This document shows, piece after piece, positions 27,783-52,235 of a stretch of DNA of 64,000 bases. The stretch is from Gammaproteobacteria bacterium. Its GTDB lineage: Bacteria; Pseudomonadota; Gammaproteobacteria; Ga0077554; Ga007554. The notes beneath the pieces are model-generated. The model searched no databases. It had not been told where the DNA came from and saw nothing but the letters and a program-made list of their open reading frames with translations. The stretch lies in contig JAMPIW010000007.1 of assembly GCA_040183005.1 (NCBI GenBank), positions 1,496,188-1,560,187 of the forward strand. The letters run 5' to 3'. A program made the translations under genes and the position numbers. Position 1 is the first letter of the stretch, and every line of letters begins with the position of its first letter.

Positions 27783-30700
27783 CTAGCCCATCAGCTCACC
27801 AGCAATCATCTCGGCTTGCTTCAAAACCGTTTCTCTCGCCAATAACTGCATGTCGGGCGGGTAACCATACTGGCGCAGGGTACGTTTCACAATCACCTTT
27901 AGTTTGGCCTTCACGTTCTCCTTGATCGTCCAGTCGATAGAGGCATTTTCACGCACCTTTTGTGTCAGCACCACAGCCAACTCTCTCAACTGGTCCTTTT
28001 GCATCAGCTCTCGTGCGCTGTTGTTATTGGCCACGGCGGTGTAAAACGCGTATTCAAAATCGCTCAAGCCCATCTGCCTGGCTTCATCATCAGAGGCGAC
28101 GATTTCCTTGCTGATTTTGATCAGCTCCTCCATCACCTCAGCGGCAGTCAGAATTTTGTTGTGATATTTCTTGATGGCGTTTTCCAACATTTCCATCAAG
28201 GATTTGCTCTGCACTAGATTTTTCTTGGCGCGTGCCTTCAGTTCATCGTTAAGCAGTTTTTTCAGCACTTCCAGAGCTACATTTTTGTGTTCATAGCCTT
28301 TCAGATCGGCAAGGAACTCATCAGATAAGTTGGAAATATCCGGTTTCTTTATGCCCGCCGCGTCAAAGATATCAATCACCTGTTCCGACACCAGCGCTTT
28401 ATCAATCACTTGGCGAATGGTTGTTTCTATTTCTTCGTTACTGCGACCTTCTCCCGTACTGTCAAATTTGGCCAGACGGGCCTTCACCGCCTGAAAAAAA
28501 CCCACTTCATACATCACATCCAGTGCCTACTCATGCGGAACCGCAATGGCAAACGCCGGAGAGAGGGCAGTCACCTCGTTGATGTACCGTTTGCGACCAT
28601 CCTCCAGCCCAAGAATGTGATCCTCTGCTGCCAGAATAAGCGACAACTTCCGGGCCGTATCGGCCTCGAAATAGTCTTCATAGGCAAAGCCGTGATAGAG
28701 GGCGGAGACTACTTCCAGCTTTTCCAGCATCACGGCCACCGCCTGTTCCTGCGCCAGGGTAGGATCGCCCTTGCCGCCGGCATCGGAGTAGAAGGAGAGC
28801 GCCTCTTTGAGATCGGCGGCAATACCCAGATAATCCACCACCAGGCCGCCAGGCTTGTCTTTGTATACCCGATTCACCCGCGCAATCGCCTGCATCAGGT
28901 TGTGCCCCTTCATCGGCTTGTCGATGTATAGGGTGTGCATGCTCGGCGCATCAAATCCGGTCAGCCACATATCACGCACAATCACCAGCCTAAGCGGGTC
29001 TTCAGCGTCTTTCATGCGCTCGGCCAGCAGCTTGCGCTGCTCCTTGGTGGTGTGGTGCTTGGCGAGCAGCGGCCCATCACTGGATGAAGCCGTCATCACC
29101 ACCTTGAGACGCCATTGGTTAGCTCGCCAGTGTGCCACTCGGGCCTGATCCTGGTGATTTCTTCATACAGATCGGCAGCAATCCGCCGTGACATGCTTAC
29201 CACCATGCCCTTTCCGGAAAACACCTCCTGCCGTGCCTCGAAGTGGCTCACGATATCCTGGGCAATGTTCTTGATGCGCTGCTCCGCGCCAATCAGCGCC
29301 TCCATTTTGGTCCACCTGGACTTGGCTTTCTGCGTTTCGGTGAGATCATCAAGGTCCAGCTCTTCATCCAGCTCCGCAATCAGTTTTTTGCCTTCGTCGC
29401 TCAGGCCCACCTTTGCCAGACGGCTTTCGTAGAAAATCCGCACCGTAGCGCCATCTTCCACCGCCTGCGCTATATCGTAGATATCCACAAAGTTGCCGAA
29501 CACTGCCGGGGTGTTCGCATCGGTTTTTTCAATTGGTGTGCCGGTAAAGCCAAGATAAGTGGCATTGGGCAGCGCATCGCGCAGGTATTTGGCAAAGCCA
29601 TACACCACTTTTTTGCCAACCACCTCGCCGCTGGCGTTTTTCTCGTCCACGGTTCTTGCGTTGAAGCCGTATTGAGTTCGGTGAGCTTCGTCGACAATCA
29701 CCACGATATTGCCGCGGTCCGACAACTGCTCATACACATTGCCCGCATCGGGCTGGAATTTCTGGATAGTGGAAAAGATCACACCACCGGAAGCGACCTT
29801 CAGCAACTCCTTCAACTGTCCACAGTTTTCTGCCTGCACCGGCTCCTGTCGCAACAACTGCCCGGATGCAGCAAAGGTATCGAACAACTGGTCGTCCAGA
29901 TCATTGCGGTCGGTAATCACCAGCACCGTCGGGTTATCCAGTACCAGCACGATCTTGCCAGCGTAGAAGACCATGGAGAGCGACTTGCCCGAGCCCTGCG
30001 TGTGCCACACCACGCCGGCTTTCTTGTCACCCTTGGGTTGATTAGCCATAGCTGGCCGGGGTTTCGCCCGCGCGCAGGCCAGCGCCCATATCCGCCGCCC
30101 GCAGGGTCGAGGCTATCGCCGCGTTCACCGCATAGTACTGGTGATAGGCCGCCAGCTTCTTCACTGTGCTGATACTGATCACGCCAGTTTTCGGGTCTTC
30201 CCTCTTGCTCTTTTCAAACACAATGAAATGGCGCACCAGATCAAGCAGGGTGGCCTTGTTCAACATACCCTGAATCAAGGTTTCCAACTGGCTAACCAGA
30301 GGCGAGGCTTCCGCTTTACCATCGGCGCTTTTCCAGGCCATGAAACGCGACAAACCTGCCGACAGGGAACCGGCTTTGGCCTCCAGCCCATCGGAAATCA
30401 CCAAAAAGGCATTGGGGGTAAACAGGCTGGGAATGGTCTGCTTGTAGGTTTCTATCTGCTGATACGCCGCCTTGATGGTGGCATTTTCATCGGCAGCGTT
30501 TTTCAGCTCGATCACCACCAGCGGGATGCCGTTGACGAACAGCACCAGATCGGGCCGCTTGTTCTGGTGCTCCTGGCGATCAGAATGGCCGATCACCGTG
30601 AACTGGCTGGCCACCACAAACTCGTTGTTCTCCGGGTTGGCAAAGTCGATCAGCCACACCAGATCGCCGCGCTCATTGCCGTCTTGCTGGTAACTCACCT

Positions 30701-30992
30701 TCACCCCTTCAGTGAGCAGGCGATGAAAGGCCTCGTTATTAGCCTGCAAGTCGGGTGAATGAATGCGTCGCACCTCCTTGAGGGCGGTTTGCAACATCGA
30801 GAGCGGCAGCCCGGGGTTGATGCGCCGCAGGGTCTGCTCCAGGCGCCCGATCAGCAACACTTCGTCGTAATGGTTGCGCTCCGGGTTATCGCCATCGGGG
30901 GCAATGTCCGGTCCGTAGACATAGCTATAGCCCAGACGCTCAAGCAACTTGATGGCAAAGTCTTCGATGGCGGATTCAGTAAGTTTGCTCAA
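27783..30992 (-). pseudogene. hsdR: Type I restriction enzyme R subunit HsdR, disrupted
   Basis: Four collinear pieces: 30992-30042 (N-terminal nuclease domain, 'LIGRLEQTLRRIN', 'VLFVNGIPLVVIELKNAADENATIKAAYQQIETYK' with the PD-ExK-type core), 30049-29096 (helicase part 1 '[14 protein letters not shown]', '[13 protein letters not shown]', '[12 protein letters not shown]'), 29138-28527 (helicase part 2, '[25 protein letters not shown]', '[10 protein letters not shown]') and 28517-27783 (C-terminal EcoR124-like domain). The second piece is shifted by one base at both ends, and the third meets the fourth at an in-frame amber codon (28527-28529). Complete otherwise, so the decay is recent. It would have been the ATP-dependent translocase/nuclease of the HsdRMS complex. 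Confidence 0.93.
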
Positions 30993-31964: not shown

Positions 31965-32864
31965 TTAAGAGGGTAACCTTTCACATGCAGCAGAACGGCG
32001 CTGCCCCGTTATTGCTTCTATTTTTGAGTGAGTTTTTTCTGTCTCACTGAATTTGTCTACAATGCTTGCACCGCCTCCGCTCGCTGTACGGTAAACCTCA
32101 TCAGGCGTAATGTAGTTCAATGATTGGTGTATTCTTTCTGTGTTATAAAACACAAAATATTCCGTCAATCCCAGCAGTAATTCAGGCATCGTGGTGTAGC
32201 CTTTCAGATACACATCTTCGTGTTTGACGCTACGCCAGAGCCGCTCCACAAAGATGTTATCCAGTGCCCGCCCACGTCCGTCCATGCTGATGGCAATACC
32301 GCGCGCCTTGAGGACGCCCGTAAAAGCTTCACTGGTAAACTGGCAGCCCTGATCGGTGTTGAATATCTCGGGGATGCCATAGGCCAGTAGCGCCTGCCCC
32401 AAACAATCCACACAGAACACGCTGTCGAGCGTGTTCGATAATCGCCATGCCAGCACTTTGCGTGAGTACCAGTCGATCACTGCCACCAAGTACACAAACC
32501 CCCGCGTCAGGCGGATATACGTAATGTCAGTACTCCACACCTGGTTGGGTCGTGTCACCACCACGCCTCTGAGCAGATACGGATAAACCTTGTGCTGCGG
32601 GTGCGGTCGGCCGGTGTTCGGCCCCGGCGCCATGCCTGCCAGTCCCAATAGTCCCATCAACCGTTGCACCCGCTTGCGATTGATATTGTGACCTAAACCT
32701 CGCAGGTAATGCCGCATCTTGCGGCTGCCGTAAAACGGATGCCGTGTGTATTCGGCATCAATCGCCGATAACAACGCTAATTCCTGTTCGCCCGGTTTCG
32801 CGGCCATTTGCGGCGCGTAGACGGTGGAACGGGCAATACCCGCCAGTTCACATTGCCGGGTCAA
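31965..32864 (-). CDS. IS3-family transposase OrfB (integrase core)
   Basis: A 299-residue DDE transposase half. Visible motifs are the HTH_21-type 'YTRHPFYGSRKMRHYLRGLGHNINRKRVQRLM', then the catalytic core 'WSTDITYIRLTRGFVYLVAVIDWYSRKVLAW', 'IFNTDQGCQFTSEAF' and 'WRSVKHEDVYLKGY' (D, D, E). In IS3 elements it is normally made as an OrfAB fusion by -1 frameshifting; the two frames here are separated by 31 bp, so a fusion needs a shift upstream of the visible OrfB start. Confidence 0.95.
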   Translation of the reverse strand: MTRQCELAGIARSTVYAPQMAAKPGEQELALLSAIDAEYTRHPFYGSRKMRHYLRGLGHNINRKRVQRLMGLLGLAGMAPGPNTGRPHPQHKVYPYLLRGVVVTRPNQVWSTDITYIRLTRGFVYLVAVIDWYSRKVLAWRLSNTLDSVFCVDCLGQALLAYGIPEIFNTDQGCQFTSEAFTGVLKARGIAISMDGRGRALDNIFVERLWRSVKHEDVYLKGYTTMPELLLGLTEYFVFYNTERIHQSLNYITPDEVYRTASGGGASIVDKFSETEKTHSKIEAITGQRRSAACERLPS

Positions 32865-33684: not shown

Positions 33685-34509
33685 GCTTTCAGGTCTTTAT
33701 GGGCGTCGTTGAGGAAGAAGCCTTCGTTGTTAACTGTCGATGCCACGAATGGTGAGGCTCATCTTGGCTAGCCGCCAGGTGGTCTGGTTGCTCTCCTGCC
33801 CGTAGATGGAGATGTCGTTGACGCGGCCTTGGTGCTCTTCGACAAACTTTTCCGACTGTACGAACATGCCGCCCGAGCCGCAACAGGGATCGAACACCCG
33901 GCCTTTGTAGGGTTCAAGCATGGCGACCAGCAATTCAACAATGCTGCGCGGCGTGTAGAACTGGCCACCCTGTTTGCCCTCGGCCAGCGCGAATTCACCC
34001 AGGAAATACTCAAACACATGGCCCAGCACATCGGCGCTGCGGGCTTTGGCATCGCCCAGCGCGATATTGCCCACCAGATCAATCAATCCGCCCAGGCTGG
34101 TGGGATCGAGGTTTTGCCGCGCAAACACCTTGGGCAGCACGCCCTTGAGCGAGGGGTTTTCCTTTTCGATGGCATCCATCGCCGTATCGACAAAGGTGCC
34201 GACGCGGGGCTGCCTGGCCTTGGCCAGCAGAAAAGACCAGCGCGCCTCCGGCGGCACAAAGAAGACATTTTCTGCCTTGTATTCGTCTTTGTCTTCCGGG
34301 TCGGCACCGGCATACTCGCCTTCGCCTGCTTGCAGCTTGTTGAACATCTCCTCGAAAGAGTCGGAGATATATTTGAGGAAGATCAGCCCCAGCACCACAT
34401 GTTTGTATTCGGCGGCATCGATGTTCTTGCGCAGCTTGTCGGCGGCCTTCCAGAGTTGCTTTTCCAATGGCTCTTCTTTTATTTCTTTTGCTGCTTTAGC
34501 TCTGGCCAT
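33685..34509 (-). pseudogene. hsdM: Type I methyltransferase HsdM, truncated
   Basis: The first 259 residues are well preserved: the N-terminal HsdM domain ('[40 protein letters not shown]'), then the N6-Mtase region with SAM motif '[21 protein letters not shown]' and '[14 protein letters not shown]'. The frame stops at 33730; in another frame 'NNEGFFLNDAHKDLKA' continues the family sequence, so a small indel precedes a deletion that removes the catalytic NPPF motif and runs into hsdS. The product cannot methylate. Confidence 0.9.
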
Positions 34510-40855: not shown

Positions 40856-41050
40856 AATAGACGTGGAGATCAGAGACACTCCACGAAGCTCCTTTCGCCG
40901 TTTCCCGCCAATTCTGCGGCCGCCCGAAATTCTTTTCGCTAAAGTTTATTCCCTCGCATCAGCTGCCATTTCTGTCTCTGACTGCAAATTACCCAGCTAT
41001 TCAATCAATTACAGATACCCGCAGTGCGGTCAGCAGAGTCCTCTCATTCC

Positions 41051-41065
41051 GGCACGCTCCTTGAT
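41051..41065 (+). promoter_or_regulatory. Sigma-54 (RpoN) promoter of the accessory gene block
   Basis: The sequence GGCACG-CTCC-TTGAT matches the -24/-12 consensus TGGCACG-N4-TTGC with the invariant GG and with TTG at the expected distance (one mismatch, A for C at -12). It is 50 bp upstream of the first gene's start at 41113 and points into the block. The only sigma-54 activator gene in the window closes the same block at 50799-52046. Confidence 0.75.
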
Positions 41066-41112: not shown

Positions 41113-41763
41113 ATGTACCAAACAGAAAGCACATTTGAATTCAACCCGGAAGCGGAAAGTTTTGAAGCAGAACAATTCGAGTTCGGCCAGTCCGAATGGG
41201 CCGGCGAGAGCGGCGAGGTGTTCAACGAAGCGGAACTGATGGAACTGACGGCTGAGCTCATGGAAATCACCAGCGAGCAGGAGCTGAACTATTTCCTCGG
41301 CAAATTGGTCAAGCGGGCGGCCGGTGCCATCGGCAAGGTGGTCCGTTCGCCGGTAGGCCAGGCCATCGGCGGGGCACTCAAGGCTGCCGCCAAAAAGGCT
41401 CTGCCCATTGCCGGGGCTGCCTTGGGCGGCGTTGTGGGTGGACCGCTGGGCGCCCAGATCGGCAGCGGGCTTGCTCAGGCGGCGGGCGGCGCTCTGGGTC
41501 TGGAGGCCGAAGCCCTAAGCTACGAGGACCGGGAATATGAAGGCGGAAAGCAGTTCGTGCGCTTTGCGGGTGAAACCGTAAAGAACGCCGTCACCGCCCC
41601 CACCAGTCCTGATCCCAAAGCGGCGGCGCAAAGCGCAGCGGTGCGGGCTGCACAGTCCCTTGCACCAGGCTTGCTCAGCTCTGCTCAATCCGGACCCGCA
41701 AGTCGCGGAGCATCAGGTCGATGGGTACGGCGCGGACGCCACATCGTCATTCTCAATGCTTGA
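41113..41763 (+). CDS. Acidic glycine-zipper protein, paralog 1
   Basis: A 216-residue protein from the ATG at 41113, which has a GGAGGAAAG ribosome site. Order: a short aromatic/acidic N-terminus (FEFNPEAESFEAEQFEFGQS), an acidic helix 'ELMELTAELMEITSEQELNYFLGKLVKRA' (residues 40-68), a glycine-zipper hydrophobic segment ('SPVGQAIGGALKAAAKKALPIAGAALGGVVGGPLGAQIG', about 70-130), an Ala-rich region and a basic end 'GRWVRRGRHIVILNA'. No signal peptide or lipobox. It is paralogous to the next gene. Glycine zippers suggest self-association or membrane insertion; function unknown. First gene of the sigma-54 block. Confidence 0.7.
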   Translation: MYQTESTFEFNPEAESFEAEQFEFGQSEWAGESGEVFNEAELMELTAELMEITSEQELNYFLGKLVKRAAGAIGKVVRSPVGQAIGGALKAAAKKALPIAGAALGGVVGGPLGAQIGSGLAQAAGGALGLEAEALSYEDREYEGGKQFVRFAGETVKNAVTAPTSPDPKAAAQSAAVRAAQSLAPGLLSSAQSGPASRGASGRWVRRGRHIVILNA

Positions 41764-41781
41764 CTACCCAGGAGAGCCGCC

Positions 41782-42456
41782 ATGCATGACATCAACCGCA
41801 CCTTTATGGAATACAACCCGGAAGCGGAAAACTACGAATCCGAACAGTTCGAGTTCACAGAATCAGAATGGTCCGGTGAGAGTGGGGAAGTCTTCCACGA
41901 AAGCGAGCTGATGGAACTCGCTACCGAGCTATTGGAAGTCACCAACGAAGCGGAGCTGAACCACTTTCTAGGCAGCTTGATCCGCCGGGCTGGGAGCGCC
42001 CTCGGCCAGGTGGTGAAATCACCGGTCGGCCAAGCCTTGGGCGGCATCCTCAAAGGCGCTGCCCGACAGGCCTTGCCGATGGCGGGCAGCGCTCTGGGAG
42101 GCTACCTCGGAGGTTCCTCGGGGGCGCAAATCGGTGGCCAACTGGCCTCCGGCGCAGGACGGGTTTTCGGCTTGGAAACCGAAGGCCTGAGCCACGAAGA
42201 CGAGACCTACGAAGTGGCCAAGCAGTACGTGCGCTTCGCGGCAGACGCCGTGAAAAATGCCGCCACCGCACCCCCTGGCGATCCCAGAGCGGTAGCTCAA
42301 TCCGCGGCTACCCAAGCCGCGCAGCGCCATGCGCCGGGCCTGTTGCGCGGCACCGCTACACCTGCTCAAGCAGGAGGCGTGGCGCAGGGCATTGGGCGGG
42401 GCCGGACAGGCCGATGGGTACGCCGTGGCAACCGCATCATCCTGTACGGAGTATAA
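41782..42456 (+). CDS. Acidic glycine-zipper protein, paralog 2
   Basis: A 224-residue protein, 18 bp after paralog 1, with a GGAGAG ribosome site. It shares the whole architecture of paralog 1: N-terminal 'MEYNPEAENYESEQFEF', the helix 'ELMELATELLEVTNEAELNHFLG', the glycine zipper ('GSALGGYLGGSSGAQIGGQLASGAG'), a middle 'KQYVRFAADAVKNAATAPPGDP' region, and the basic end 'GRWVRRGNRIILYGV'. Roughly 60% of positions agree by eye. A tandem duplication within the operon is the simplest origin. No signal peptide. Confidence 0.7.
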   Translation: MHDINRTFMEYNPEAENYESEQFEFTESEWSGESGEVFHESELMELATELLEVTNEAELNHFLGSLIRRAGSALGQVVKSPVGQALGGILKGAARQALPMAGSALGGYLGGSSGAQIGGQLASGAGRVFGLETEGLSHEDETYEVAKQYVRFAADAVKNAATAPPGDPRAVAQSAATQAAQRHAPGLLRGTATPAQAGGVAQGIGRGRTGRWVRRGNRIILYGV

Positions 42457-42462
42457 GCTGCC

Positions 42463-43788
42463 ATGGCCGTCGCACCTTATGTCTCATGGATGCTGGCGCA
42501 GGAGGCGCGTGCCTTGCTGACGCGGTTGGGGCGGGTCAAGCCCTTCGCCCTGCAAGAACAGATGCTACCGGCTGCCAATCTGCTGCCCGAGGCACAAACC
42601 GCAATCGAGCGCTTCCTGGTGCATGGGCGATACGAGCTGGCCATCCAAATACAGGATTTTCTGCGCTGGTTGCAGGGACGCGAAGTGTGGCAAGCAGACA
42701 CCGAAGCCGCGCATCGTCGCTTCGTGTTTCTTAGGCTGCGATTCAACGCGGTGCTCAACCAGTTCGACCTGTTCAACGATGTGATCACCCAGCGCAGCGA
42801 GAATGAGACCGGCGTATGGCTGTCCGGACTGGACGTGGTGTCCGCCGATGCGCTGGCGCTCCCCGGCGGCTATTACCAGGCACCTCCCGTGATCTGCTAT
42901 CTGGATCGTGGCATCGGCGCGGCCATCCGGCGCGCCCGCACACGGCTGCCGGGCGGCGGCGAAAACCCGGTAGCAATCATCCGCGTGCCACGCGAGCGCA
43001 TGATCGGCAGCGGTATCGCCTCCTCGCTAATCCATGAGGTGGGGCATCAAGCGGCAGCTCTGCTCGATCTGGTGAACTCGCTGCGGCCGGTGTTGCGTGG
43101 GTTACAAGCCGGCGCGGGGCGTGCGGCTTTGGCCTGGCAACTATGGGAACGCTGGATATCAGAGGTCGTCGCCGATCTCTGGTCGGTGGCACGGGTTGGA
43201 GTCGCTTCCACTATGGGACTTATGGGGGTGGTCGGACTCCCCCGGCCCTTCGTGTTCCAGCTCAATCTCGACGATCCCCACCCCACACCCTGGGTCCGGG
43301 TCAAGCTGAGCTGTGCGCTGGGTCGCGCGTTCTATCCCCATCCCCAGTGGGACCGGCTGGCGGCGCTGTGGGACGCCTACTATCCCCTGGCTGGCCTGGA
43401 CGCGCGCCGGCAGGAGATCTTGGCTCTATTGCAGGAGCACATACCGGGATTCGTTTCCCTGCTGATCAACCACCGTCCCAAGGCGCTGCACGGGCGGTCT
43501 TTGGTGGAAGTGCTGGACGTGGCCGAACGCCAGCCGATGCGCCTTCAGAGTCTGTTTCGAGCCTGGCGCCGGCTCCCCGCCCAGATGTACCGGGCACCGC
43601 CGTCACTGGTGTTCGCCGTGCTAGGCCAGGCGCGGGCCGACGGGCAGCTGAATCCGGAGGATGAGAGCGAATTGCTCGGCAAGCTTCTTACCCACTGGGC
43701 CTTACGCAGCACGTTAGATGTTTCCGCCGCCTGCGCTCAGCGCCAGGCAACCCGATTACCGTTGCAACCTATTTTGAGCGTCCACTAA
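42463..43788 (+). CDS. HEVGH metallopeptidase-like protein
   Basis: A 441-residue protein. A gluzincin-type zinc motif HEVGH (residues 191-195, in SLIHEVGHQAAALLDL) is followed about 40 residues later by 'ISEVVADLWSVARVG', which offers the Glu of an ExxAD third-ligand motif. Other regions are predicted helical and do not resemble a named family to me. No signal peptide. Starts at ATG 42463, 7 bp after paralog 2, in the same operon. Likely a metalloprotease or a cryptic non-peptidase relative; substrate may be the neighbouring zipper proteins, which is only inference. Confidence 0.55.
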   Translation: MAVAPYVSWMLAQEARALLTRLGRVKPFALQEQMLPAANLLPEAQTAIERFLVHGRYELAIQIQDFLRWLQGREVWQADTEAAHRRFVFLRLRFNAVLNQFDLFNDVITQRSENETGVWLSGLDVVSADALALPGGYYQAPPVICYLDRGIGAAIRRARTRLPGGGENPVAIIRVPRERMIGSGIASSLIHEVGHQAAALLDLVNSLRPVLRGLQAGAGRAALAWQLWERWISEVVADLWSVARVGVASTMGLMGVVGLPRPFVFQLNLDDPHPTPWVRVKLSCALGRAFYPHPQWDRLAALWDAYYPLAGLDARRQEILALLQEHIPGFVSLLINHRPKALHGRSLVEVLDVAERQPMRLQSLFRAWRRLPAQMYRAPPSLVFAVLGQARADGQLNPEDESELLGKLLTHWALRSTLDVSAACAQRQATRLPLQPILSVH

Positions 43789-43798
43789 GGAGGATGAT

Positions 43799-43966
43799 AT
43801 GGGAACTGTAAAAAACACTCGACCGGGCAAGATCAACGTCTGCGTTACCGGCGGAGGAGCCGCGAAACGGCCGATCCGCAGAGCGCTAGTGAGCGTCTAT
43901 GCATGCTCGGGAGAAACTGGTGAGGCCCATGGCTCACCGAAACACTGGGCCCTGACTTGGAATTGA
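43799..43966 (+). pseudogene. N-terminal fragment of Cna-B-like protein, frameshifted from 44049-45842
   Basis: An AGGAGG ribosome site precedes ATG 43799 and 55 codons follow: 'PGKINVCVTGGGAAKRPIRRALVSVYACSGE' is typical of a Cna-B / carboxypeptidase-regulatory-like fold. The frame then ends at TGA 43964-43966 while a second frame from 43956 continues with 'DGCCTFDNVAPGGYEVHCESFNT', the remaining strands of the same domain. So one single-base event separates the start from the body of the gene. Sequencing error and real mutation are both possible. Confidence 0.55.
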
Positions 43967-44048
43967 CGGTTGCTGCACCTTCGACAACGTAGCGCCCGGA
44001 GGTTACGAGGTCCACTGCGAATCCTTCAACACGCTGACGCCGGTTACG

Positions 44049-45842
44049 GTGACGGTTGATTCCGGCTGTATACAAGACGTGTGTTTCAGAGACGCCATCG
44101 TAGCCCAGTTCACGCCGAAAATCGCACGAGATGATTGCACCCTCGAGAAATGTTCAAGAGGGGTGATTGGCAGGGCCATGTACCTCACCGCCGAGACCGG
44201 CCAGGTCGCGGCAGATCGCATCGCCGGGATCCTCTGGGATTCTTCAAAGCAGGGAACACTCGCATCCCTGGACGACCAGAATCGTGAAATGGTGCTCACC
44301 CCTAAGGAATCGGGCCGCTTCCTTATTGAAATGACCGTTGTGGGGCATCCATCCACCCAGCCTACTGTCCCTGATACCGGCGGAGAAGAGGGCGGCCCCG
44401 AGATGTCCACCGAGGACGAGGTACTCGTCGACGATGCCCCCGTCCAGACCATCGGCGGCAACATCGGGGTAGCCCTGCGCCGTTCGCAAACCAGCCCCAC
44501 CGACTCCCAAGCCCTGTGGGTAGCCATCCGCAACCGCACCAAGGCCATCTCCTTCAGCGGTAGCGGCTATAAGGACTTTATTGACCGCGTGCTATGCCAT
44601 CGCGATCGGGAGCAACCCCCGAGTACCCGATTGACGCGGCAGATCGAGGAACTGGGTGATCATGTCTATGGCACGGGCGCCTTTGACTTGCTCAAGACTG
44701 CCACGGAGGTATTCCTGCTGCTGGAATGCGGAGTGGCGATCAACCGCCGGGGGGCACACGAAGGACCCACCGACCCTGCGTTGTTCAACCCCACCGAAGA
44801 AGCGAGACGGCTGGGTCAAGTCATGTCGCTCGCCGACATCAAGGTCAAATTGACGGATTACCTGGGCCAAGGGCGTCTACCTTACATCGACCGTGTCATC
44901 AAGGCGGCTTTTCCCGGCCAGAGCGTCGGTAACGTGCACTGCGACGGCGTGCTCACTTCACGGGTGGATGGCCCCTGCCTGCTGGAGCTGATCTGGAACT
45001 ACTGGCACGAGGAAGGCATGCTGGTGCAGAGCATCAACGCCGTCAGCCGACGCTTCCAGAATCTGAGGGCGCCGGGCGAACGCGATCCTCTGGCGCACCT
45101 GGAAATCGATCCGCTGCGCCCCCTCAACAACCTGATGTGGGGTTATGTCGAAGATGAGCGAGATCGGTTGTCAGTCCGGCGCCGTGCCCTGGAGTACAAA
45201 CACCAATACGGGCTAAATCTATACGGCAAGGCGGTGTCTGATCTGCAAGCGTCGGACAACCGCTCCAAGTTCCTGGAAGGTTTCCATAACCTTCTGCACT
45301 TGTGCGCGATATTCTTCAAGGAGGATAACGACACTACCATCATCGCCGACGGCTACCCTCTACTCAATGCGCTCAAGGAAGTGCATCTGCTCTTGGCCCA
45401 AGGCGCTCACAATCAATTCGGCGATCTGCCCTGGATGGCGCGTGTCGAGATGCTGGTCCAGCAATGGCTCATGGCCCGCCCCGAGATGCGTGATTTCCTG
45501 CAGAGCCGGGCGATGGTGCCCTACAAAGAAGCCTGGATGCCCCAGGTGGACACCATGAAGACCCAGCAGGGATGGTCCGACATCACCGTCACCCACTTCC
45601 ACGATCTCGGCGTGTACGGCGAGCAGATCCTGCTGTCGATCCGCTGGCACAATTGGAATGACATCAATGATGAAGACGAGGCGAAGAACTGGGCGCGCTA
45701 CTTCCGGCCGGAGATCCAGGGCTATCTTCACGCCTACCGGGCCGTCACTGGTGTGGATCTGACGAATCCGGACACGGTGGACTACACCATGCCCTCGGTG
45801 CACCTGCGCAAGCGCCTGTCCATGCAGCAGCGCTCCCGCTGA
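44049..45842 (+). CDS. Large protein with Cna-B-like start, unknown body (597 aa from nearest GTG)
   Basis: The annotated frame begins at GTG 44049, but the same frame is open from 43956 and the natural start appears to be ATG 43799 in the other frame (see preceding entry). After the Cna-B-like end, an acidic segment 'EEGGPEMSTEDEVLVDDAP' follows. The remaining 450 residues are helix-rich and unfamiliar; recognisable landmarks are 'RQIEELGDHVYGTGAFDLLKTATEVFLLLECGVAI', 'DGPCLLELIWNYWHEEGML', 'NNLMWGYVEDERDRLSVRRRALEYKHQYGL' and a C-terminal 'TMPSVHLRKRLSMQQRSR'. No signal peptide, no catalytic motif recognised. Adjacent genes are in the same direction, 13 bp downstream. Confidence 0.6.
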   Translation: MTVDSGCIQDVCFRDAIVAQFTPKIARDDCTLEKCSRGVIGRAMYLTAETGQVAADRIAGILWDSSKQGTLASLDDQNREMVLTPKESGRFLIEMTVVGHPSTQPTVPDTGGEEGGPEMSTEDEVLVDDAPVQTIGGNIGVALRRSQTSPTDSQALWVAIRNRTKAISFSGSGYKDFIDRVLCHRDREQPPSTRLTRQIEELGDHVYGTGAFDLLKTATEVFLLLECGVAINRRGAHEGPTDPALFNPTEEARRLGQVMSLADIKVKLTDYLGQGRLPYIDRVIKAAFPGQSVGNVHCDGVLTSRVDGPCLLELIWNYWHEEGMLVQSINAVSRRFQNLRAPGERDPLAHLEIDPLRPLNNLMWGYVEDERDRLSVRRRALEYKHQYGLNLYGKAVSDLQASDNRSKFLEGFHNLLHLCAIFFKEDNDTTIIADGYPLLNALKEVHLLLAQGAHNQFGDLPWMARVEMLVQQWLMARPEMRDFLQSRAMVPYKEAWMPQVDTMKTQQGWSDITVTHFHDLGVYGEQILLSIRWHNWNDINDEDEAKNWARYFRPEIQGYLHAYRAVTGVDLTNPDTVDYTMPSVHLRKRLSMQQRSR

Positions 45843-45855
45843 GGAGTCGGCGACG

Positions 45856-46944
45856 ATGCTCGACTTCACCTCGGCTCTGTACCTGGGACTGCGGCATCCG
45901 AGTCGCTCGCTGCGACCCTGGGGGAGTCTGAGCACCGGCCGTCCGGCGGTGCTCGGTGCGCCCTCCGGCGCTGGGGGAGTGGCGGCGAAGCTGGCGGCAC
46001 TGATCGGTTGTGAAAGCGCCGTGCTACTGCCCTCCACGCTGCACCTGTTCTGGGACTTGTTCGGGCTGCTGGCGCAAGAGCGCATCGCCATCCATATGGA
46101 CAAAGGTGCTTATGCTATCTCCCGCTGGGGCGTGGAGCGGGCGGCAGCACGAGGAGTCCCAGTGCGCCAGTTCCGCCATCATGATCCAGAATCCCTATCC
46201 GCCTCGGTGCGGCGCGATGCCGCGCGGGGACTGCGTCCAGTGGTGGTGGCGGACGGATTCTGCCCCAGCTGCGGCAATCTCGCCCCTCTGCCCGATTATT
46301 TGGAGATCGCGCGGGATTACGACGGCCTCCTCGTATTGGACGACACCCAGACACTGGGTATCCAGGGCCATACGCCCAGTTGGGAGGCCCCCTACGGGTA
46401 TGGTGGCGGTGGATCGCTGCGCCGTTTCGGTATCTCTGGTGCAGACGTCTTGCTGGGAAGTTCCCTGGCCAAGAGCTTCGGTGTGCCCGTGGCGGTACTC
46501 GCCGGCAGCGCCCTTTGGCTGGAGCGCTTTGACAAACACAGCGCCACACCCACCCACTGCAGCCCCCCTTCGGCAGCGGTAATCCATGCCGCCGAGCAGG
46601 CGTTAGAGATCAACGCAAGCCACGGCGATGCACTGCGCCGAACGCTGGCGCAGCGGATAAACCAATTCCGTTCGCGCCTGCGCCAACGGGGGTTCTCTGC
46701 ACATGGCAAATTGTTTCCGCTGCAAACCCTGGCAGCGGTCGAAGGCGCCTCTGCTTCCGAACTGTATCGCCGCCTGCTAGATCGTGGTGTCCGCTCGGTG
46801 CTACTCCATGGTCACAGCAAAGGTGCCATCGGTTTCCTGATTACCGCCAGCCACCGCGCAGAGGACATCGACCGCGCTGTGGAACGGCTCGCCGCGAGCC
46901 TTAGTCGCGGCTTTCATCCATCGGCCATGCGCCAATTCCGATAG
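45856..46944 (+). CDS. PLP-dependent aminotransferase/oxoamine-synthase-like enzyme, divergent
   Basis: A 362-residue fold-type I protein. The PLP lysine is probably K206 in 'GSSLAKSFGVP', and the cofactor Asp in 'GLLVLDDTQTLGIQG' (residues 158-171). In 8-amino-7-oxononanoate and KBL-type enzymes this segment is DEAHxxG; here the His is replaced by Gln/Thr, so the reaction may differ. 'TAVLGAPSGAGGVAAKLAALIGCESAVLLPSTLHLFWDLFGLLA' is the N-terminal helix region. Close to the family's lower length. It is in the middle of the sigma-54 block with no biosynthetic partner, so it might modify an envelope molecule; that is inference. Confidence 0.72.
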   Translation: MLDFTSALYLGLRHPSRSLRPWGSLSTGRPAVLGAPSGAGGVAAKLAALIGCESAVLLPSTLHLFWDLFGLLAQERIAIHMDKGAYAISRWGVERAAARGVPVRQFRHHDPESLSASVRRDAARGLRPVVVADGFCPSCGNLAPLPDYLEIARDYDGLLVLDDTQTLGIQGHTPSWEAPYGYGGGGSLRRFGISGADVLLGSSLAKSFGVPVAVLAGSALWLERFDKHSATPTHCSPPSAAVIHAAEQALEINASHGDALRRTLAQRINQFRSRLRQRGFSAHGKLFPLQTLAAVEGASASELYRRLLDRGVRSVLLHGHSKGAIGFLITASHRAEDIDRAVERLAASLSRGFHPSAMRQFR

Positions 46945-46954
46945 GAGTTTCCTG

Positions 46955-47749
46955 ATGAACGCACTCGCTGAATTCGATTTCGAATCCCCCGCCACCTGCG
47001 CTTGCGGCTGCCGCGGCGATAGAGAACTGCATGAGGCCTTGGAGTCCGGATTGACGGGAGAAATCTGGCGCCAGCGAAGTTTTTCCCGTCGCCCCCCACC
47101 CCGCGTCGGCAGTGCGCAACCAGCGGCTCCGCGCCCACGGCCGAGGCCCGTCCCGCGCGGCCTGGGGCGGGTCTATCTCCGCGAGCCCTACCCCGTCGCC
47201 TATCCCTATGAGCCCGAACCCGGCCCGGGACCAAGCGAGGAGCCCGGCCCCGAATACAACCGCTGGGTACAGGACTGTCTGAACCGGATATTCGGTCTTA
47301 GTCTACCCGTTAATGGCATGCTGGACGTGGCATCGCGCAGCGCCATTCGCCGCCTGCAAAAACAGGAAGGATTACCGGTCAGCGGCATAGCCAGTCCAGC
47401 TACGGAAAAGGCGTTGCGACGCCTGTGCGGGGAAGGCGCAGAGCCCGCCGAGGGGGAATGGCTGGCGGGCGAACAAGGAGGAGTTCCCGGTGAGCAGACT
47501 GCCGGCAAGGTCGCGTGCCACGTTCAAGCAAGGCACCCTGACCAAGAAAGCACCGCCCCAGTATGTGAAGGATTTTTCCGGACCTGCTGCGGAGTGCGCA
47601 GCCGCCTTGAAGAGGGCCGGGAAAACCCGGGCCGAGGCACTCAGCATTATCAATGCCCAAATTGGCTCAGCGATTGCCATGCTTCGCAAAGCGGCAACCG
47701 ACCTCAAGCGCGGAAGCCGTTCATCCAAGACAAAAGACCTTTTCCATAA
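46955..47749 (+). CDS. Peptidoglycan-binding-domain protein with Pro-rich linker; C-terminal part out of frame
   Basis: Starts MNALAEFDFESPATCACGC, sharing the short aromatic/acidic N-terminal motif of the block. A Pro/Arg-rich linker (about 45-95) leads to a PG_binding_1-like domain (about 100-157: 'YNRWVQDCLNRIFGLSLPVNGMLDVASRSAIRRLQKQEGLPVSGIASPATEKALRRL'-type pattern, given here only as landmarks YNRW..QDCLNR and PATEKAL). After about residue 175 the frame reads through 260 bp that code for the next gene in another frame and looks non-natural there. A one-base indel may have lost its stop or split a PG-binding/peptidase fusion. No signal peptide. Confidence 0.6.
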   Translation: MNALAEFDFESPATCACGCRGDRELHEALESGLTGEIWRQRSFSRRPPPRVGSAQPAAPRPRPRPVPRGLGRVYLREPYPVAYPYEPEPGPGPSEEPGPEYNRWVQDCLNRIFGLSLPVNGMLDVASRSAIRRLQKQEGLPVSGIASPATEKALRRLCGEGAEPAEGEWLAGEQGGVPGEQTAGKVACHVQARHPDQESTAPVCEGFFRTCCGVRSRLEEGRENPGRGTQHYQCPNWLSDCHASQSGNRPQARKPFIQDKRPFP

Positions 47750-48230
47750 GATATTCAGAGTAAAGCCGGTGTTTGTGCCGACCTGGCTGAAACCCACGGC
47801 TGCGATAAAGGACCGGGGTGATGTAGTAGCAACCCGCTGTAAACGGGTGGCCGATCTGCTGGCGAGTGGCAAGTTCAAGTTCTTCTGCACGATCAACTCG
47901 ACCAATTGCCCGGACTGTTCGAACAGCTCGAGTGCCTGGGCCTGTTCGAGTTATGGAAATAACCGGGTTATTTGCTTGGGAAACGCTTTCTGGGACTTCA
48001 TGAAGGCCGGGGAAACCGACTCCTTGCTTGCAATCCTCATGCACGAGCCATTCCATATTTACTTTGGCAGTTATGTTACGGAACATCGGTCGGACGCTGA
48101 AAAGTTTGGGGGTATTTATTGCATCGTGCAGTTTGTCTTCGAAACGAATAGCCGTGCCGCACCCGCTTGGTCAAACAAACCTTGTACGGATATGGCGGTA
48201 AGAAAGGAAGTAGGCGGTTTCTTATCATGA
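47490..48230 (+). CDS. M35-like (aspzincin) metallopeptidase with HEPFH motif
   Basis: A 246-residue protein from GTG 47490, preceded by an AAGGAGG ribosome site. The zinc motif HEPFH (residues 185-189) stands in 'LLAILMHEPFHIYFGSYVTEHR', followed by 'SDAEKFGGIYCIVQFVFE' with Asp202 as candidate third ligand, the aspzincin layout of M35/lysine-specific endopeptidases. A Cys-rich loop precedes it ('FFCTINSTNCPDCSNSSSAWACSSYG'). No signal peptide. Its TGA overlaps the next start (ATGA). It overlaps the preceding frame by 260 bp, so the two may once have been one polypeptide. Confidence 0.65.
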   Translation: MSRLPARSRATFKQGTLTKKAPPQYVKDFSGPAAECAAALKRAGKTRAEALSIINAQIGSAIAMLRKAATDLKRGSRSSKTKDLFHKIFRVKPVFVPTWLKPTAAIKDRGDVVATRCKRVADLLASGKFKFFCTINSTNCPDCSNSSSAWACSSYGNNRVICLGNAFWDFMKAGETDSLLAILMHEPFHIYFGSYVTEHRSDAEKFGGIYCIVQFVFETNSRAAPAWSNKPCTDMAVRKEVGGFLS

Positions 48231-49801
48231 CATGGGAGTTTGCATTCAGTCCGGAGCCGTTCCCCTGGTTCCCGGAATCGACATGGGAGGGTGAGGCCAA
48301 CCGCAGCAGTCCCGACTATATCCGCTGGCTGCAGTCGTCCCTGAATCGGGTGATGGGCCTCCGCTTGGCGGTCGACGGCATCGAGGGGCCGGCCACCCGC
48401 AGCGCGGTCCGAAGCTTCCAACAGCAGCAGGGCTTGGCAGTGGATGGGATAGTCGGGCCGAATACCGAGGCGGCGCTCAAATCTGCCCTGAGTGGGGCTT
48501 CAATGAGCGCGATTACCAGCGCGAGTGTCCCTCAAGGCGAAGCATGCGAAGTATTGGATAATTTTGACTTTGATCGAGATCAACTCAAACCCGAACATCG
48601 TCCAAAGTTGGATACAATCTCGAGAAGAGTTATTAATAGCCAGATCTCTTCAGTTAGAATCATCGGTTACACGGATCCCATTGGCGATCGCGATTACAAC
48701 TTCCGCCTCGGAAAAAGGCGTGCAGAGCGGGTTGCCCTCGAATTGCGTCGCACAGTGGAACGAATGCAGCCAGGCAGCGGCGGGCAACTTGCTATAACCG
48801 TTGAGTCGAGCGGCGAGGTTGAGAAAATATCAAATAATCCCGCGCAGAATCGGCACGTACAAATATGTTTGCCGCCTATGACTGTACGGCCGGGGACCCC
48901 AGATGACACTGGTTTGCAACCGATACCGCAGCGATTTTGTTGCCTGCTTGCACCGCAGCAGGTCAATTCGCTTACTCAGAATGACAACATCGCTGATCCT
49001 CTTAACCTCGGTCAGCATGGCAGCTGGAATGAGGTTAACGGTATTATTTATTCAGGTAGAGCAGGGTTTCTTGATCTTGCCCACATCCGTGATAGCTGCG
49101 ACACAACAAAGTATATTTTCGATCAACTAGCACAAGGTGTGATGCCGCGCACGGTGCTCGTAAAACGCACGCGCGTGGGCATCTCTCCGGGAGTATTGGG
49201 CATCGCCATCGTGCACAAGCGCCCACTGCGACCGATCGACTTGGCGCGCGTGATCGCCTACGATGCGGGCCTTGGTCACGAGATCGCGACATACTACGAC
49301 ATGGGTATATTCGGGGTTGACGTTGGTGGACATAACTCATCCTTCTCTCCGGAAGACTTGTGCTCCAACTTCCTTGGCACCTTGCTCGCTGAACGAGCGA
49401 TTGCAGCCGGAGGTAACTTCAACCATGCTGCAACGGCAGAACTGAATACGCTGATCCGCGATCTTGACGGACAGATTCCGTCCGAGACCCTCAGGGCTTT
49501 CAATCTAATCAACGGTCACTGGGTATGGTTCTCTCGCACCAATTTTTACAGGTCCGTGACTCTTCCAGGTTACCTTAGGCGTCGCAACTTCACCAGCATG
49601 CCGTGGGTGGCCGGGCATCCCAGCGATAAACCGCCGCCGCCCTATGTCACCGCTCCCTTGCCCGACGTAGGATACATATATACCTACACGCACATGGAAG
49701 AACAGTCTACGCGTCGGTTGAATGTGCTTTTCCCACGTTACATTGCCCAGATAAAGCAGGATGCAGCGGCGAGATACGGGCCCAGATTCGACAGTCCATG
49801 A
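48227..49801 (+). CDS. Peptidoglycan-binding / OmpA-like / DUF4056 protein
   Basis: A 524-residue protein from ATG 48227 (MTWEFAFSPEPFPWFPE), which overlaps the previous stop. It contains a PG_binding_1 domain (residues 30-88, 'YIRWLQSSLNRVMGLRLAVDG' type), an OmpA C-terminal-like domain (about 108-216; 'VRIIGYTDPIGDRDYNFRLGKRRAERVALELR' with the murein-contacting Asp and Arg), and a DUF4056 domain (about 235-500; 'PQRFCCLL', 'NEVNGIIYSGRAGFLDLAHIRD', 'GHEIATYYD', 'SPEDLCSNFLGTLLAERAIAAGG', 'GHWVW'). Two murein-binding modules argue for an envelope location, yet there is no classical signal peptide. Probably anchors or senses peptidoglycan; activity of DUF4056 is unknown. Confidence 0.72.
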   Translation: MTWEFAFSPEPFPWFPESTWEGEANRSSPDYIRWLQSSLNRVMGLRLAVDGIEGPATRSAVRSFQQQQGLAVDGIVGPNTEAALKSALSGASMSAITSASVPQGEACEVLDNFDFDRDQLKPEHRPKLDTISRRVINSQISSVRIIGYTDPIGDRDYNFRLGKRRAERVALELRRTVERMQPGSGGQLAITVESSGEVEKISNNPAQNRHVQICLPPMTVRPGTPDDTGLQPIPQRFCCLLAPQQVNSLTQNDNIADPLNLGQHGSWNEVNGIIYSGRAGFLDLAHIRDSCDTTKYIFDQLAQGVMPRTVLVKRTRVGISPGVLGIAIVHKRPLRPIDLARVIAYDAGLGHEIATYYDMGIFGVDVGGHNSSFSPEDLCSNFLGTLLAERAIAAGGNFNHAATAELNTLIRDLDGQIPSETLRAFNLINGHWVWFSRTNFYRSVTLPGYLRRRNFTSMPWVAGHPSDKPPPPYVTAPLPDVGYIYTYTHMEEQSTRRLNVLFPRYIAQIKQDAAARYGPRFDSP

Positions 49802-49922: not shown

Positions 49923-50000
49923 ATGAAAAATGCATCCGGAGTAAAACCAAACAGGAATGGTGGGGCGTGGTGCGGCACTAACATCCGGACACGACTATGA
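49923..50000 (+). CDS. Possible 25-residue peptide upstream of the amidohydrolase
   Basis: A tiny frame begins at ATG 49923, 9 bases after GAGGA, and encodes MKNASGVKPNRNGGAWCGTN plus a short basic tail (IRTRL). Its stop overlaps the amidohydrolase ATG at 49997 (ATGA), so it could be a leader for coupling or a small secreted peptide with a central Gly-Gly-Ala-Trp-Cys. Coding capacity is plausible but unproven. Confidence 0.35.
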   Translation: MKNASGVKPNRNGGAWCGTNIRTRL

Positions 50001-50754
50001 TCATCGACTCCCACTGTCATGCCGGGGCCGGTTTCGGTCTCACCGACCCCTGGAGCGGCCGTCCTCTCTTGGAAAAATACCTGCGCCGTGCCGCGTCCGC
50101 CGGCATTACCCACACTGTATTATTCGCCAACTTTCACGAAGACTACGCGACCGCCAATCGGATAGTGGCCGGGATCGTCAATCAGAAGCCGGGGCGCTTC
50201 TTCGGCTTTATCTACCTGCATGCACAGCGAGACAAGGGCCGTATACGCGCGATGATCCAGACAGGTGTCGAGGAATATGGTTTCGTCGGCATTAAGGTAC
50301 ATCGGCACGATGCGCGCATTACCCGGGAGGTTTGCGAGGCGGCGCGAGAGTTCGCATTGCCAGTCCTGTACGACGTGGAAAACGAACTGCCAATCGTAGA
50401 CCGGCTCGCCGAGTATTACCCCGATGTACCATTCATCATCCCCCACCTGGCCAGCTTCACTGAGAACTGGCGATCGCAGACGGCGTTCCTGGACCAGCTT
50501 GAGTCGCATCCGAACATCTATGCGGATAGCTCGGGAGTACGTTTTTTTATCTTCTGGCACGGGCTGTAGAGCGTTGCGGGCCCCAAAAAATTCTATTTGG
50601 CTCGGACGGTCCGTGGCTACATCCCGCCGTAGAGTTGGCCAAGATTCGCGCGCTGCAACTGAGGCCAGAACAGGAGAGACTGATCCTCGCTGAAAACTTT
50701 TTGCGCTTGACTGGACAAACCGGCACGTGGGATGTTGAAGTACAAACCGCGTGA
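49997..50754 (+). pseudogene. Amidohydrolase-2-like metal-dependent hydrolase, frameshifted
   Basis: Starts ATG 49997 with the first metal-ligand motif 'MIIDSHCHAGAGFG'. The fold continues 'LRRAASAGITHTVLFANF', 'GRFFGFIYLHAQRDKGRI', 'VGIKVHRHDARI', 'PVLYDV', 'VPFIIPHLASF'. At 50542-50548 (seven Ts) the frame shifts and ends early at 50569; adding one T restores 'LLARAVERCGPQKILFGSDGPWLHPAVELAKIR', including the last Asp motif 'FGSDGPW', to TGA at 50752-50754. A 7T tract makes sequencing error or phase variation possible. Substrate unknown; other family members cleave aromatic carboxylates or lactones. Confidence 0.8.
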
Positions 50755-50798
50755 CCTTGCTTTTACAGGGCGTCATTTTTCTCGATGGCGTTAACCTT

Positions 50799-52046
50799 CT
50801 ATTCGCCGCGCTGCTCTCCGCATCTGCAACGTGCGGTCCGTGACCCCAAGGCGCGGCGGACAGCGAACTCAAAACCCTGATCGCGCCACTCACCTCCGTC
50901 CTCGCCGCAGGCCAGCAGGTCGTGCGGTGGCACACACCCAGCAGTGAGCAGCCTTCCTCCGGCATGACGGCACAGCATGCGCCCAACCACTTGTTTGAGC
51001 TCGCGAACATTGCCTGGGTATTCCCGTTTTAGCAGATATTCTTGTACCGGGGCATCCAGATCCAGAGGCGCTTCATCAGGAGCACTTTCCTCGAGAAAGC
51101 GGCGGACGAGTGGAAGAATATCCTCCCGCCGCTCGCGGAGAGGAACCAGCGTACAAACGAAACCAGCGAGACGAAAATACAAATCGGCGCGAAACTCTCC
51201 GCGCTGAACATGCGCCCACAGATCGCGGTTGGTGGCACATACCAAACGGAATGACGAGCGCTGCCAAGCGTTGCCCCCAACTCGCTTGAAGGCGTGCTCC
51301 TGAATGACACGCAGCAACTGCGTTTGTAGGTGCGACGGAAGTTCACCCACCTCGTCGAGAAACAAAGTCCCCCCGTCCGCAAGGGCAAAGGCGCCGTCAC
51401 GGGCGGATACTGCACCGGTGAAGGCGCCACGTTCGTGGCCGAAAAATTCGCTGCCTGACAGTTCCGGCACGATAGTGCTACAGTCCAAAATTATCAGATC
51501 CCTCTTGGCGGGACGGGCATCAAGGGCATGGACGAGCCTTGCTACCAGTTCTTTTCCAGTGCCGCTTTCCCCCTGTATCAGCACTGGGGCATCGGTATAG
51601 TGCGCCACTTCTGCCACTTGCCGCAGAGTCTGCTTCCATGCCTGGCTCTCCCCAACCAACATGTGGCGTACCGCAGTTGAGCTTATCAACCGGTTTACTT
51701 CTTCCCAGCGTTGCAAGCGTACTCTGATCTCTTGCGCCGCTTGGTTGGGCTCGTTACAACACAGCACGTCAGAAGCGCCAGCCCGCACCAGCTGCCTGGC
51801 TGTTTCCGCGGAAAGGGCTTCGAGGCAGCCTGCCAAGACATACTCGTTTCGATTGCGGCTCGCGTCCCGGACCACATCGCAGATGTCTCCGTCGATCTGG
51901 CGGAATAGCACTACACCAGGTCCGTGCGTCCCATACCGAGTGAAGATCTGCACGTCCACACCGTTAAGACGCAGACAATCGACGATGGCTTCGCTCACCC
52001 TCCCCTGACTCGCACCAACACTAAGAACCCACGCCTTGATATCCAT
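50799..52046 (-). CDS. Sigma-54-dependent transcriptional activator (NtrC-like)
   Basis: A 416-residue bacterial enhancer-binding protein. The ATG at 52046 follows GGGAGG and is preferred to an upstream frame. Residues 1-120 form a receiver-like domain that lacks the phospho-acceptor Asp pattern ('GASQGRVSEAIVDCLRLNGVDVQIF'). The AAA+ domain has Walker A 'GESGTGKE' (residues 159-166), sigma-54 contact loop 'GAFTGA' (207-212), Walker B 'GGTLFLDEVGE', and 'NVRELKQVVGRM'. The C-terminus reads 'FAVRRALGSRT' and ends oddly; inserting one G in a run of four restores a Fis-type helix 'ALGVTDRTLQMRR'. It should regulate the sigma-54 promoter at 41051. Confidence 0.85.
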   Translation of the reverse strand: MDIKAWVLSVGASQGRVSEAIVDCLRLNGVDVQIFTRYGTHGPGVVLFRQIDGDICDVVRDASRNRNEYVLAGCLEALSAETARQLVRAGASDVLCCNEPNQAAQEIRVRLQRWEEVNRLISSTAVRHMLVGESQAWKQTLRQVAEVAHYTDAPVLIQGESGTGKELVARLVHALDARPAKRDLIILDCSTIVPELSGSEFFGHERGAFTGAVSARDGAFALADGGTLFLDEVGELPSHLQTQLLRVIQEHAFKRVGGNAWQRSSFRLVCATNRDLWAHVQRGEFRADLYFRLAGFVCTLVPLRERREDILPLVRRFLEESAPDEAPLDLDAPVQEYLLKREYPGNVRELKQVVGRMLCRHAGGRLLTAGCVPPHDLLACGEDGGEWRDQGFEFAVRRALGSRTARCRCGEQRGE

Positions 52047-52235
52047 GGCATTCCTCCCTTCCCTATTGTCGAACCAAGTGGAAGTGGTTCGGATTTTCGT
52101 GCACATACCACGACTCCCGCCACCACCTCCCCGGGGAAACTACTACCTAGTTCATGGAAAGGTTGCCACCTTGTGGGAGCGTGGCGATGCGGTTTTTCTA
52201 TTGATACTCCTGGTCAGGTATTGCCGTCAATTTCG

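Follow-up and report, generated by a model that had tools for sequence, protein, structure and literature searches.

Tandem glycine-zipper proteins at the head of a conserved gene cassette with variable cargo and a sigma-54 activator

The glycine-zipper pair and its C-terminal tag

What could be the role of two adjacent genes whose products combine an acidic leader, a Gly/Ala-rich zipper and a short basic end, and do these genes act with their neighbours? An earlier note on this DNA read them as a self-assembling or pore-like protein activated by removal of the leader, and pointed to two metallopeptidase-like genes in the same block. Here the pair (GZ1 and GZ2) is considered both in the window, that is, the whole stretch of 64,000 nucleotides analysed (Table 1), and among related loci in other genomes.

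The tandem paralogs are present as that note described them: both open reading frames are intact, and the proteins are 63% identical. The layout ascribed to them holds as well. In both proteins the leader (residues 1 to 60-61) has a net charge of -17, Gly and Ala make up 42-48% of the zipper segment of about 65 residues, and the last 20 residues carry charges of +5 and +6. The GZ2 zipper segment contains 8 GxxxG motifs compared to 3.9 in composition-matched shuffles (p = 0.009), and the GZ1 segment contains 6 compared to 3.5 (p = 0.08), the latter being a weak enrichment. A stronger argument than these counts is the conservation of the zipper glycines: in the pattern GxxxGxxxGxxxGxxxG, Gly 102, 106, 114 and 118 are conserved in 95-100% of 84 homologs, and Gly 110 in 73%. 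Zipper hydropathy is moderate: the maxima over a 19-residue span average 1.13, and 0 of 84 homologs reach 1.8. A simple pore is hence less likely.

Structure prediction agreed with the proposed layout in part: the leader is modelled as disordered and residues 211-222 as a C-terminal hairpin (pLDDT about 89), with confidently predicted helices at 40-71, 81-97 and 138-183, whereas the zipper itself is modelled with low confidence (pLDDT about 50). Fold searches with the model in PDB and among viral structures gave nothing convincing (best Z 4.7). Low complexity seems to explain the sequence matches of GZ to designed helical repeats and HslV. Neither window protein matched the Pfam glycine-zipper families; a Pfam search of 84 family members yielded one match to Gly-zipper_Omp (E = 0.008) and two to TrAA12. 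In Paraburkholderia phymatum (L017) the leader is an expanded tandem GEYQ repeat, and thus the leader length varies by short repeats.

The conserved basic end claimed earlier is well separated from the background: the C-terminal tag GRWVRRG-x-x-I was observed in 122 of 142 family ORFs and in 3 of 716 background ORFs, and W212 and G216 of the tail are present in all GZ homologs (84/84). The DNA pattern of the tag has exactly two matches in the genome of the window, one each in GZ1 and GZ2; elsewhere, there is one match in the carrier genome G246 and two each in G433 and G435.

A recent tandem duplication of GZ1 and GZ2 is ruled out by the maximum-likelihood tree of 84 GZ proteins, as each is placed with its own orthologs. 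The window GZ1 forms a group with the GZ1 proteins of Methylococcaceae, Thiocapsa and Cellvibrio (support 100/98), as does the window GZ2 with the GZ2 proteins of these taxa (support 100/99). Of the earlier claim of adjacent duplicates in a fixed order, the conserved order is retained and local duplication is not: according to the tree, the two are older paralogs, duplicated earlier and since inherited together. A third, Cys-containing GZ class (N-terminal CxC..C), encoded in the cargo region, forms a separate cluster in this tree. Its members start with MHxxxCxCxxC in L028 (15749-16441), L034 (15810-16484), L063 (15439-16086) and other loci; in several of the upstream GZ proteins, CPxCG is found in the linker that leads to the C-terminal tag. 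These Cys motifs are possible metal-binding knuckles.

Table 1. Features of the cassette in the window
Feature	Position	Strand	Description
Sigma-54 (-24/-12) promoter-like site	41050..41065	+	CGGCACG-CTCC-TTGAT; upstream of GZ1
GZ1	41113..41763	+	216 aa, ATG at 41113; acidic leader, glycine-zipper helical domain, C-terminal GRWVRRGRHIVIL tag
GZ2	41782..42456	+	224 aa, ATG at 41782; GZ1 paralog, same layout, C-terminal GRWVRRGNRIILYGV
HEVGH protein	42463..43788	+	Putative gluzincin-type metallopeptidase, 441 aa; begins 6 bases past GZ2
CnaB-plus-helical core protein	43811..45842	+	Open frame 44049-45842, 597 aa; N-terminal part in other frame, 43811-43903
BioF/alpha-oxoamine-synthase-like PLP enzyme	45856..46944	+	362 aa; Aminotran_1_2 E=1e-15
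Cargo with PG_binding_1	46955..47746	+	Acidic leader, Pro/Arg linker, PG_binding_1 E=4e-9
Cargo, M35-like HEPFH metalloendopeptidase	47490..48230	+	Aspzincin_M35 E=0.0016, below cutoff
Cargo with PG_binding and OmpA-like domains	48227..49801	+	Leader (MTWEFAFSPEPF)
Amidohydrolase (PF04909 family)	49997..50715	+	Open frame 49997-50569; rest in other frame from about 50533
Sigma-54 activator (NtrC/NifA-type AAA+)	50799..52106	-	Convergent with the cassette; last residues in other frame

The cassette around the pair

The zipper genes head a cassette in which one to three GZ genes are followed by the genes for the HEVGH protein, the CnaB-plus-helical protein, the BioF-like PLP enzyme, variable cargo, the amidohydrolase and the convergent sigma-54 activator. 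Homologs of the HEVGH protein were found in at least 243 genome loci by a search with the HEVGH alignment, and 80 of the 243 loci were kept for analysis; a genome scan with GZ2 as the single query protein gave no loci. Direct comparison of the well-covered loci (n = 64) demonstrated extensive synteny. The HEVGH gene, the CnaB-helical gene and one to three GZ genes ahead of HEVGH are present in all of them (64/64), the PLP enzyme in 61, the activator in 59 and the amidohydrolase in 57, with HEVGH, CnaB-helical, PLP, amidohydrolase and activator genes all present and in order in 52. In each of the 60 cases scored, the activator is encoded on the opposite strand.

The HEVGH loci are spread over several phyla (Pseudomonadota, Nitrospirota, Myxococcota, Verrucomicrobiota and Acidobacteriota, together with records labelled Planctomycetes and Chloroflexi). 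The carriers include many soil and water bacteria, among them nitrifiers, methanotrophs, rhizobia, relatives of Massilia and Janthinobacterium, and myxobacteria. GZ and HEVGH co-occur, being found in the identical 4 of 398 sampled genomes of the phylum. Distant GZ matches in L021-L025 (E 1e-3 to 1e-6; 0.004) turned out on inspection to be unrelated or antisense ORFs. The cassette is absent from three genomes of its own genus and from four others of the family, and thus is accessory. No relatives were found in viral contigs and phage records, hence a phage origin is not supported.

The GZ, HEVGH and helical families have no match in Pfam, NCBIfam, PADLOC, PHROGs and PDB, and a description of the cassette was not found in the open-access literature searched. 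A divergent subtype is located on a plasmid of Paraburkholderia sp. PGU19 (L106, 7561-9957 and 15152-15703). It comprises an acidic-leader helical protein, an HEVSH protein with 24% identity to HEVGH and a related amidohydrolase (52%), while the CnaB-helical and PLP proteins have no match there. This subtype suggests a larger superfamily of such cassettes.

In the HEVGH protein, H191, E192, G194, H195, E234 and D238 are invariant among 37 homologs. The HExxH motif followed by a conserved downstream acidic ligand is that of gluzincin-type zinc metallopeptidases, and points to a putative member of this type; sequence searches of Pfam, NCBIfam, PADLOC and PDB gave no match for the protein. The relatives of the CnaB-helical protein are about 700 aa long. 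Its N-terminus has a predicted CnaB fold (CnaB2, Z 10.2, rmsd 1.6, 89 residues), followed by about 440 residues that are mainly helical and include strongly conserved positions; the list of fold matches was filled by the CnaB part, so that the helical part is barely covered. The PLP enzyme belongs to the BioF/CqsA superfamily, with bioF-family matches below all curated cut-offs, and the SLAK lysine motif is present in the members inspected. The amidohydrolase is 66-69% identical, in two frames, to its relative from L027, which matches Amidohydro_2. An M20-family peptidase gene with neither leader nor tag adjoins the amidohydrolase in about 13 loci (for example, L028 16410-17985, L036 17230-18678, L060 17268-18746, L093 16629-18152).

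Sec-like N-termini are nearly absent. By a simple hydropathy rule, which recognises four signal-peptide proteins of the window, they were observed in 0 of 84 GZ, 1 of 37 HEVGH, 3 of 50 CnaB-helical and 1 of 52 cargo proteins.

In the window GZ1, GZ2 and HEVGH are intact, while four other parts of the cassette each align with relatives in two frames: the CnaB-helical gene, the leading cargo gene, the amidohydrolase gene and the last part of the activator. The frame-shift regions are 43811-44060, 47430-47530, 50530-50720 and 50790-50860; the amidohydrolase gene contains homopolymers of 7 T at 50542 and 6 A at 50585. From the reading frames, this copy may be decaying or may contain sequencing errors, and the two are indistinguishable since an HsdR-like gene elsewhere in the window looks split too. 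This type I restriction gene (27783-30992, minus strand) is apparently divided over four overlapping ORFs, and an HsdM-like gene (33730-34509) seems shortened near an IS3-type transposase (31965-32864).

Variable cargo and sigma-54 control

The variable cargo genes are situated between the PLP enzyme and the amidohydrolase. Among 52 representatives the cargo domains are PG_binding_1 (24), Amidase_2 (7), GIY-YIG (5), OmpA (4), M74 (3), trypsin (3) and glucosaminidase (2), with single cases of M23, M15, CHAP, SLT, papain (C1) and M35. With cargo-region ORFs labelled GZ or M20 excluded, 22 of 78 cargo ORFs had the leader motif F[EN]xxPF within their first 150 residues, as did 2 of 763 background ORFs; these counts are descriptive and carry no test, as the motif was picked after viewing the same sequences. 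The GZ leaders contain the related words FNPE or YNPE. In 36 of the 64 well-covered loci, the GZ domain is found again among the cargo genes, sometimes within cargo proteins (L036, L042), and the C-terminal tag also closes non-GZ cargo of the GIY-YIG type (L027, L031). This recurrence and the tag on cargo are the main evidence that GZ and cargo follow one route.

Both metallopeptidase-like genes mentioned in the earlier note, HEVGH and HEPFH, are in the block, but only HEVGH has a fixed place in it. The HEPFH protein is 67% identical to M35-containing cargo of L056, and its ORF is, from the alignment, probably the C-terminal part of the preceding cargo gene in another frame. It was matched in only a handful of 86 other loci. 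It is therefore unlikely to be a maturation peptidase, and the suggestion that it removes the leader gives way to its description as optional M35-type cargo.

Within the 300 bases that precede GZ1, no sequence scores better as a sigma-54 site than the one in Table 1 (p = 0.01, Markov shuffles). Near-consensus sites TGGCACG-N4-TTGCT were observed upstream of the first GZ gene in 40 of 72 loci at p<=0.05, where 3.6 are expected by chance, and in 32 of 72 at p<=0.01, where 0.7 are expected; related loci are not independent in these counts. Together with the dedicated activator, these sites suggest one tightly controlled operon. The wider cassette, the tag on cargo proteins and the sigma-54 control had all been missed in the earlier note.

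Possible functions and known systems

Several uses of such a cassette are compared here. We tentatively favour, while stopping short of calling it probable, an accessory sigma-54-controlled system of antagonism or lysis, in which the zippers would assemble at or cross membranes and bring lytic cargo, with HEVGH as the maturation peptidase. GZ1 and GZ2, the leading structural genes, would encode subunits that have no enzyme activity and serve as carriers or in translocation. The acidic leader would hold the basic zipper protein soluble inside the producer, and the leader and the C-terminal hairpin tag would label it for the machinery of the cassette, including the HEVGH protein as a putative maturation peptidase for both GZ and cargo. 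The mature zipper domains might associate at membranes by analogy with the zipper of Tde1 and help peptidoglycan-cutting, proteolytic or GIY-YIG cargo to reach the target envelope; the most likely use would be antagonism or lysis of neighbouring bacteria. The synteny, the tags, the promoter sites, the motifs and the cargo are observed; the cleavage, the membrane action and the target are steps that we infer.

This antagonistic role is favoured by the conserved order, the co-occurrence of GZ and HEVGH, the envelope-attacking cargo, the shared leader and tag, the sigma-54 promoters with their activator, the invariance of HExGH...E, the Tde1 precedent and the accessory spread across phyla. Against it, there are no transporter and almost no Sec signals for exit, and no recurrent immunity gene was seen among ORFs of at least 80 aa. 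The moderate hydropathy of the zipper, its low-confidence model and the lack of a GZ fold match also weaken it; it is not apparent what a toxin system would need the PLP enzyme and the amidohydrolase for, and with several shifted frames this copy may be decaying.

Two zipper-based systems provide the closest comparison. In the Cdz system of Caulobacter, the glycine-zipper bacteriocins CdzC/CdzD (84-86 aa) kill on contact, are exported by an adjacent type I system and are accompanied by a small membrane immunity protein; their zipper has been proposed to aggregate and insert in membranes (PMC5380434). The cassette likewise has two tandem glycine-zipper proteins with a leader and an accessory distribution. 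Unlike Cdz, GZ1 and GZ2 have 216 and 224 aa, an extra helical domain and a conserved hairpin tag, and the cassette includes a zincin-like protein and lytic cargo with no adjacent transporter. No type I secretion family recurs in the cassette loci, there is no ABC-transporter domain in the cassette of the window, and no recurrent small or immunity gene was seen among the clustered ORFs (>=80 aa). Given the protein size and the transporter, the cassette is not a member of the Cdz family. In Agrobacterium, the GxxxG repeats of the T6SS effector Tde1 are required for membrane permeabilisation and for its entry into prey, and Tde1 also depends on the T6SS and the adaptor Tap1 (PMC10240207); it is thus a direct precedent for a zipper that carries an enzyme into prey. 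GxxxG repeats on an effector-bearing protein are shared, the cassette zippers being also fused to lytic or GIY-YIG cargo; however, the cassette occurs also in genomes without T6SS.

In polymorphic toxin and effector systems, a constant routing part is combined with exchangeable effector domains (PMC3482391). The same combination is seen in the cassette, whereas the leader is different, no recurrent immunity gene was seen, and there are its own sigma-54 regulator and metabolic enzymes. The core families are new to the libraries searched, while the general idea of a constant routing part with exchangeable effectors is already known. A further step, which we regard as rather doubtful, would be a self-contained export or delivery system of a new type: GZ, HEVGH and the CnaB-helical protein would form the machine, recognise the FExxPF-like leader and the GRWxRxG hairpin tag, and release the lytic cargo without Sec, T6SS or contractile particles.

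In a role that involves no killing, namely assembly at the surface or envelope, GZ and the CnaB-helical protein would build a surface, matrix or cyst-coat structure, and the tagged hydrolases would remodel the own wall for building or release. CnaB-type domains are typical in surface stalks and pilins, the PG_binding and OmpA domains would provide wall anchoring, no immunity genes stood out, and the conserved tag suggests a fixed assembly rather than diversifying toxins. On the other hand, the core proteins are almost devoid of Sec signals, the GIY-YIG, trypsin, papain and M35 cargo fits wall remodelling poorly, and the cargo differs from species to species. We consider this role somewhat unlikely.

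It is unlikely that the GZ proteins are ordinary soluble helical accessory proteins, that is, scaffolds in a metabolic or signalling operon whose zipper packs a small bundle. The confidently predicted helices outside the zipper and its moderate hydropathy would fit, as would the two metabolic enzymes, the sigma-54 activator and the fact that the PLP enzyme weakly resembles autoinducer synthases. But tagged lytic cargo and GZ domains fused into cargo are hard to reconcile with metabolism, and the PLP enzyme is missing from three loci.

A RiPP-like or microcin-like pathway seems distinctly unlikely. Here GZ would be the precursor, its leader would recruit enzymes, and the basic hairpin would be the released peptide; HEVGH would remove the leader, and the tailoring would fall to the PLP enzyme and the amidohydrolase. 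Such a pathway would account for the acidic leader with a basic hairpin tail of 16-20 residues, the adjoining peptidase-like gene and the two metabolic enzymes in most loci. However, the tail hardly varies between phyla and is also found at the end of large cargo enzymes, the precursors would exceed 200 aa and contain a folded helical domain, there is no transporter, and 3 of 64 loci lack the PLP enzyme.

Extracellular contractile injection systems have environmental hosts and loci with varied toxin-like domains (PMC8213781). The cassette resembles them in both respects, but sheath and tube genes are absent from the genome of the window (neither the contractile sheath PF04984 nor the tube PF06841) and none recurs in the cassette. 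VipA was found in 11 of 21 carrier genomes and was absent from 10, including one complete genome (G246); 6 of these 10 also lacked the tube family, although those assemblies may be drafts. In the genome of the window, the T6SS sheath gene VipA is located at C7:451273-451728, about 1 Mb from the cassette. In terms of gene content, the cassette is independent of T6SS and contractile particles. It is therefore very unlikely that the leader is a loading signal which makes the GZ proteins and cargo substrates of an injection machine encoded at another site in the genome, be it a T6SS or an extracellular contractile system: the T6SS of this genome and the zipper N-termini known in T6SS effectors would agree with it, but the VipA-less carriers, the missing contractile sheath and tube and the absence of VgrG/PAAR among the cargo domains do not.

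If the antagonistic role proposed above is true, it would add an effector system that is sorted by a leader and a tag and needs no known secretion machine. Even if it fails, the fixed order, the sigma-54 promoter and the two short tags make the cassette directly testable in culturable Nitrosomonas, Janthinobacterium and Massilia.
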